Positions 44,754-46,807 of a stretch of 64,000 bases of DNA are shown piece after piece. Positions within the stretch are counted from its first letter, which is position 1; every line of letters starts with the position of its first letter. The position numbers were made by a program, and so were the translations under genes. The stretch is from Chromatiales bacterium (GTDB taxonomy: Bacteria > Pseudomonadota > Gammaproteobacteria > Steroidobacterales > GCA-2729495): positions 1 through 64,000 of the forward strand of contig JAFIFS010000070.1 in NCBI GenBank assembly GCA_020831895.1. The letters run 5' to 3'. The notes beneath the pieces are model-generated. The model did not search any database, had not been told where the DNA came from, and was given only the letters and a program-made list of their open reading frames with translations.

Positions 44754-45239
44754 TTGAAACCAGCGGCACTGCTCAAGTTCCGCGCGGTGCCGCCAGCCTG
44801 GATTGTGCCGGCCGCCCTCCTCTCCTGGGCGCTGCATACCTGGGCTCCGGTCATGCAGCTGCTCGAACGGCCCCTCAGCATCATGCTGGCGCTGCTGGCT
44901 TTCGCCGCCAGCCTGCTGCTGACCGGCCAGGCCGCAAAGACGCTAGCACGCCACGACACGACCATCTATCCGAATGGCGAGTCGACCAGGCTCGTGACGG
45001 CAGGCCCGTTCAGGTTCACCCGCAACCCGATGTACCTGGGCATGACGCTCATCGTGCTCGGCGTGGCGCTGCTGCTCGGCAGCCTGACCGCCCTGCTTGG
45101 CGTCCCCTTCTTCATGCTCGCGGTCCAGCAGCTGTTCATCATTCCGGAGGAGCAGCGCCTGGGCGGCTGGTTCGGTGAGGACTACCGCCGCTACTGCGCG
45201 CGGGTCGCGCGCTGGCTGCCGCTGCCGCCGCGCCGCTAG
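44754..45239 (+). CDS. Isoprenylcysteine methyltransferase-like membrane protein
   Basis: A 161-residue inner-membrane protein with four or five helices and the C-terminal SAM-dependent methyltransferase motif of the ICMT/PEMT family: LVTAGPFRFTRNPMYLGMTL and EEQRLGGWFGEDYRRYCARV. Substrate unknown, because bacteria lack prenylated-protein targets of that kind. The TTG at 44754, with GGAG upstream, fits the first helix (KPAALLKFRAVPPAW); an ATG at 44694 lies inside the previous gene. The stop overlaps the remnant of the convergent pseudogene. Confidence 0.82.
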   Translation: MKPAALLKFRAVPPAWIVPAALLSWALHTWAPVMQLLERPLSIMLALLAFAASLLLTGQAAKTLARHDTTIYPNGESTRLVTAGPFRFTRNPMYLGMTLIVLGVALLLGSLTALLGVPFFMLAVQQLFIIPEEQRLGGWFGEDYRRYCARVARWLPLPPRR

Positions 45240-46807
45240 TCGCCGCCCGCAGGCGCATCCGCCGGGACCAGCCTGAGGATCTTCGAGCCAGCCCGGTTTT
45301 CCAGCAGCAGTTAGAGCGTGCCGTCGTAACCGAGCTCGATGTGGCGGAAGCGCGCGAGGTTCTCGATCAGCAGATCGCTGTTAACTAACCGATTATCAAA
45401 GATCTCCAGGCGCAGCAGATCGGTAGCCTGCAGCGTGCCGGCGATGATGTTGCCCCGCCAGCACGGGAACTGGTCGGTGTCGTAGAAGATGAAGCTCGAG
45501 ATCGCGTTGGACGGCGTCCAGTCTACGACCGGGAAAATCACCTCGTCCTCCCGCAGCGTGATACCGAGCTCTGCTGCCACCTTCACCGGCCGGCCATCGT
45601 AGTTCACGCCGCGGCTGAACAGAGGCCATCCGCAGTTACCCCCTGCAACCAGCCGGTTCAGTTCATCGCCGCCGCGTGGGCCCATCTCGGTCGACCACAT
45701 CTCATGCGTGAACGGGTTCAGCTCCAGGCCCTGCGGAATGCGATGTCCGAGCGTCCAGATCGATGGCAGTGCTCCCGGCACTCCAAGAAAAGGGTTGTCC
45801 TCAGGGATGCTTCCATCATCGCGCAGGCAATGGATCTTGCCGTAGGGCAGGTCCAGGTCCTGGATGCCGATGTAGTCGAGCCGTCCCTTCATGCCGACGC
45901 TGAAATAGACATGCCCCTCGTCATCGAAAGCCAGGCAACCTCCGGCGGAGAGGTCCGACATCATGCTGTAGGTTTCCAGATCGGCTTGCCAGAGCACCTG
46001 CTCGTCGACCCATTCGCCGTCGCGTATCCGCCCGCGCACGACCCTGTTCATGGACACGGGTCGGCCGGCCCGCCGGCTCAGGCCGTTGCAGTCCTCGCAG
46101 CGATCAGTGTGGTGCAGGTAGATCCATCCGTTGTCCTCGTAGTCCGGGTGCAAGGCCACCTCGAGCAGCCAGCCGAGCCCCTGCACCTGGCCAAGGAACA
46201 AGCCGAGTCATCGAATACCGGCGGAGTTGCCCTGATGTAGGGGTCGAGGCTGCCATCGGTGTCAACGATCCGCAGACCGCGCATGCGCTCGCTGAGCAGG
46301 ATTCGGCCATCGGGCAGCGGGGCAATAGAGAATGGCATGGGGTCAAGGCCGGTGACGGCCGTCTCCAGCCGGAAGGCATGGCGCTCACTGACCAGCGGTA
46401 CATCCGGAATCTGATATTCCATGCCGTCGCGCTTGTCGAGGATCGTGACGCCCAGGCGCTGCTCTGCCACGTAGAGCGCGATGTTGTGGATCTGGCGCGG
46501 GCTCATCGTCGCGGCGAAACCAGGCATACCCGAGTCCGGGAAGCCTTCGGCGATGCTCCGCGCGATTGCCTCGACTGTGTCGCCATGCTCCAGCGTCACG
46601 CCGACCAGGGCGTGCCGCGTTCAGACCACGGAGATCCTCTCCGTGACAGCTGGCGCAGGCATCGTTGTACTGCCGGATAAAGACATCGTGCATCGGTATC
46701 CGGCTCATGCGTTCCCAGTCGATGGTTGCCGGATCGAAATTCTGCGCCCCGGCACTCGAGGAGCCGGTCATCATCGCGCCGAGGACCACCCCCTTCAGTA
46801 TCCTCAT
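45236..46807 (-). pseudogene. Broken cytochrome c-PQQ sugar/aldehyde dehydrogenase
   Basis: Reading right to left, an intact ATG (46807) with GGAGG upstream opens a signal peptide and a heme-c site ([14 protein letters not shown]). Near 46612-46625 the frame shifts, and the cytochrome end (GMPGFAATMSPRQIHNIALYV) and the dehydrogenase start (FSIAPLPDGRILLSERMRGL) go on in another frame. Near 46200-46210 it shifts back (LGQVQGLGWLLEVALHPDY, then WTLGHRIPQGLELNP and GDELNRLVAGGNCGWP). At 45311 an in-frame TAA follows DGTL; 25 codons of open frame (LLLENRAGSKILRLVPAD) continue to TAG at 45236, so a tail is lost. Three lesions mark a periplasmic sorbosone-dehydrogenase-like gene as decayed. Confidence 0.85.

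Follow-up and report, generated by a model that had tools for sequence, protein, structure and literature searches.

The locus at 45236-46807 on the minus strand of the window (the whole 64,000-nucleotide stretch analyzed here) is, with a probability of about 90%, a true pseudogene of a c-type cytochrome/GSDH-type (PQQ sugar dehydrogenase-like) fusion gene whose need was lost and which is under removal. Two frameshifts and an in-frame TAA were read directly in the DNA, in agreement with the initial annotation of a cytochrome c-dehydrogenase gene broken at three places, and the same gene is intact in other genomes. The identity of the locus is given by its match to PF07995 and by 54-71% identity to these intact orthologs.

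The gene starts at an ATG (46807-46805) with a GGAGG 5 bases upstream, and the translation and ortholog alignment show that its 5′ piece (46621-46807, frame A) encodes a signal peptide, the CASCH heme-attachment motif, and the sequence EDLRG, after which frame A, entered at 46807, is abandoned. Frame B is closed by a stop at 46623-46621, and homology begins in it at about 46611, so frameshift 1 must lie within 46620-46608, where the locus lacks a net 2 bases relative to intact orthologs. The middle piece (46204-46611, frame B) carries the cytochrome domain's distal Met region (GMPGF) along with the start of the GSDH domain, spanning LVGVTLEHGD to PPVFDDS, with DDS at 46206-46204. Homology restarts in frame A at Phe (46198), which places frameshift 2 within 46203-46199, where the locus is a net 1 base short of the intact orthologs; both sites had been predicted to within a few bases, at 46612-46625 and 46200-46210. 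The 3′ piece (45314-46198), which encodes most of the GSDH beta-propeller, runs from FLGQVQGLGW to DGTL and ends at the TAA (45311-45313). Behind the TAA is a tail (45236-45310) that is still recognizable in translation and in the ortholog alignment, with 24 sense codons (LLLENRAGSKILRLVPADAPAGGD) before a TAG at 45238-45236, one fewer than the 25 originally counted. The 5′ and 3′ pieces share one frame, at net -2 and -1 bases relative to intact orthologs, but the two frameshifts do not compensate each other because a frame A stop at 46385 falls in the stretch that separates them. Together with the frame B stop at 46623-46621, this means that neither frame alone carries the protein. A promoter and terminator scan found nothing.

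The 3′ piece matched the Pfam GSDH profile PF07995 at positions 46-319 (E 5.6e-70, 236.7 bits), well above the curated cut-off of 25 bits, and the middle piece matched its beginning (positions 3-45), which places the propeller domain in the GSDH family. The nearest solved structures, over 289 residues, are 7cdy (E 4e-43) and E. coli 2g8s (E 4e-41). These proteins, glucose dehydrogenase and YliI, are soluble aldose sugar dehydrogenases of PF07995 that share the beta-propeller family with the window gene; unlike them, the window gene has an N-terminal c-type cytochrome domain, and it is broken. This small cytochrome domain was recognized by its CxxCH and GMPxW/F motifs in the ortholog alignment, with no Pfam call on the short fragments, and it no longer lies in a single frame, as frameshift 1 separates CASCH (frame A) from GMPGF (frame B). 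Residues conserved in the working enzyme have also changed at invariant columns (R>C twice, Y>C, D>H). In addition, the GHR[S/N] motif, in which several solved homologs carry Asn, has become GHRI in the broken gene; this Asn presumably contacts PQQ. The genome has other GSDH genes (contigs C13 and C98), which are open and only 33-38% identical to the broken gene, and no second close copy was found there.

Comparison with intact orthologs, which the initial annotation had proposed as a check, bore out the three lesions. With the 3′ piece as a query, close copies turned up in 19 of the 39 other family genomes (2 of them partial), none with internal stops, and more copies in MAGs of other Pseudomonadota. 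All 29 aligned intact orthologs maintain a single frame across the three break points, with open frames of 515-651 codons from stop to stop, a pattern far beyond chance. Orthologs from the same gammaproteobacterial family (L037-L052) have the same cytochrome c-GSDH architecture, can be aligned end to end, and are 62-71% identical over the GSDH part, and they differ from the window gene in being lesion-free in one open frame. The column of the TAA is occupied by Tyr in 26 of the 29 orthologs, by Leu in 2, and by Phe in 1, supporting the earlier proposal that a Tyr codon was lost there. At the ortholog loci examined, none of the five genes that flank the broken gene turned up nearby, so the neighborhood offers no operon argument. 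One of the neighbors, a divergent pair for formaldehyde oxidation at 46863-48823 (S-(hydroxymethyl)glutathione dehydrogenase and S-formylglutathione hydrolase), is intact in the window and was not found near orthologs of the broken gene elsewhere. Further along, three tRNA genes (Leu-TAA, Cys-GCA, and Gly-GCC) are located on the minus strand at 49539-49723 and 50583-50658, and several listed ORFs that overlap them are likely artefacts.

The broken gene has also changed at sites where intact copies are conserved. Among 105 columns invariant in the 29 orthologs, 6 were altered (G>A, R>C, R>C, Y>C, E>D, and D>H), compared with 0-3 when each intact ortholog was tested in the same way against the rest. 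With the 16 family orthologs only, the broken gene had 17 of 179 invariant columns changed, against 0-11 (maximum 11 of 190) in intact copies. Control genes from the same genome, compared over matched genome sets, gave 3/188 for purB against 18/180 for the broken gene, 14/204 for uvrC against 25/230, and 11/183 for frmA against 21/212, so the excess is strong against purB and weak against uvrC and frmA; an addB-like control was too variable to be judged by invariant columns. On average, the changes were harsher (mean BLOSUM62 of about 0 or below, against 0.8-0.9 in uvrC and frmA), in small numbers. The lineage is on a long branch, with a tip of 0.78 in a three-gene tree and 0.74 in the tree of the broken gene itself, and once this is allowed for, a raised total rate of the broken gene is not clear. 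These values fit a gene that was constrained over most of the branch and lost its constraint late. The broken gene still has its start and ribosome site, keeps most residues, and shows its codon bias, which makes the earlier view of a recent decay plausible, though this support is indirect, and the missense changes at several invariant columns must have taken some time to accumulate.

It could be argued that the breaks are errors of sequencing or assembly in a gene that is really intact and that the organism makes a normal enzyme, particularly as this is a draft genome of 110 contigs that is 92% complete. To estimate the background of breaks, we scanned about 374 kb of this genome by codon-usage segments and obtained four frameshift candidates, seen as same-strand frame changes without a good start: the broken gene, a frameshift in hemH, a transposase-like stretch that is itself broken, and two adjacent genes wrongly taken as one, the last two cases judged from the translations. 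The sensitivity of the scan was incomplete, as it missed frameshift 1 of the broken gene, which follows a short first piece. Still, with four candidates in about 374 kb, three lesions (two frameshifts and one nonsense) within a single 1.6-kb gene cannot be considered background. The hemH frameshift is the only other unexplained break in a conserved gene among the candidates, and it makes a consensus error somewhere in the assembly plausible. It lies near the C-terminal quarter of ferrochelatase (G000:C13, about 55304-55328; L103, about 15310), after which the C-terminal part runs on in another frame; no other hemH was found in the genome, and this split could reflect a consensus error or be genuine damage to a gene that normally matters. 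The transposase-like stretch (L117:5698-6164, G000:C14), broken across two frames, is probably an insertion-sequence remnant according to its translation. At the locus itself, however, the break sites are not long homopolymers, the long neighboring genes are open, and missense changes at invariant columns go with the lesions. An assembly error is therefore an unlikely cause, although a consensus error or a mixed population may still account for the breaks, and real decay, as the initial annotation had argued, is best supported by the intact orthologs, the low background of breaks in this assembly, and the changed invariant residues.

That the pieces remain functional, either as a short dehydrogenase starting at TTG 46201 or as a full-length protein made by programmed frameshifting and readthrough, is scarcely credible, since, although the 296-codon 3′ open frame has a strong codon bias and keeps most GSDH columns, it lacks the signal peptide and the first propeller strands, ends before the last conserved stretch, and has invariant residues changed inside it, while the heme motif and distal Met region sit in different frames and the orthologs are free of shifts and stops at all these points.

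The pseudogene also agrees with what we observed in the rest of the family. When presence or absence of the GSDH fusion was mapped on a tree built from three genes for 39 family genomes, the pattern required at least nine gains or losses, a count part of which may come from incomplete MAGs; even sister genomes were split, with the gene absent from G007 (100% complete) and present in G021. This patchiness is most simply explained by an enzyme that is dispensable and often lost, and against it the broken copy looks like another loss caught midway.

Regarding the cause, loss of PQQ synthesis, which had been put forward as something to check, showed no link to the lesions. In all 37 family genomes searched, including those with an intact enzyme, pqqE was below the cut-off, and in three more distant genomes of the same order it scored 525-552 bits; pqqB had no match in the genome of the broken gene, nor was a match found for pqqC, in a search without a positive control. 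Because no family genome, with or without the intact enzyme, has pqqE above the cut-off, its absence does not separate broken from intact copies, and PQQ-synthesis loss was rejected as the cause. Loss of cytochrome c maturation was rejected as well, as a cluster with ccmA, B, C, E, F, DsbE-type, and NrfF-type genes, all open, lies 4-10 kb away on the same contig (36796-42452, minus strand), and heme attachment is thus not a likely reason for the decay.

Judging from its family, the ancestral product would have been secreted to the periplasm, where its C-terminal GSDH beta-propeller would oxidize an aldose-type sugar with PQQ and pass electrons to the heme of its N-terminal c-type cytochrome domain. 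We infer this substrate, as well as loss of need as the cause and the order of events, in which the gene would no longer have been needed in this lineage, then acquired two small frameshifting length changes, one nonsense mutation, and several missense mutations at otherwise invariant sites, and would now be heading for removal, a fate that the gene seems to have met repeatedly across the family. Ordinary bacterial pseudogenes likewise show small frameshifting length changes, a nonsense mutation, missense changes at conserved sites, and patchy retention, and nothing notable sets this locus apart from them.

In conclusion, this is an ordinary, fairly young pseudogene of an already known enzyme family, and the locus should be annotated as a pseudogene instead of two or three short dehydrogenase genes, which is a routine annotation point. 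E. coli does not make PQQ and takes it up (PMC13088180), a precedent for PQQ enzymes in an organism without PQQ synthesis. Tentatively, a dispensable cytochrome-linked sugar dehydrogenase might be repeatedly lost in a family of uncultured Gammaproteobacteria unable to make PQQ, where its retention may track PQQ from neighbors and the window would hold one loss midway. About half of the family has an intact GSDH-cytochrome fusion, none with pqqE above the cut-off, which suggests scavenged PQQ or a PQQ-free role in the family and represents a small lead on such functions.
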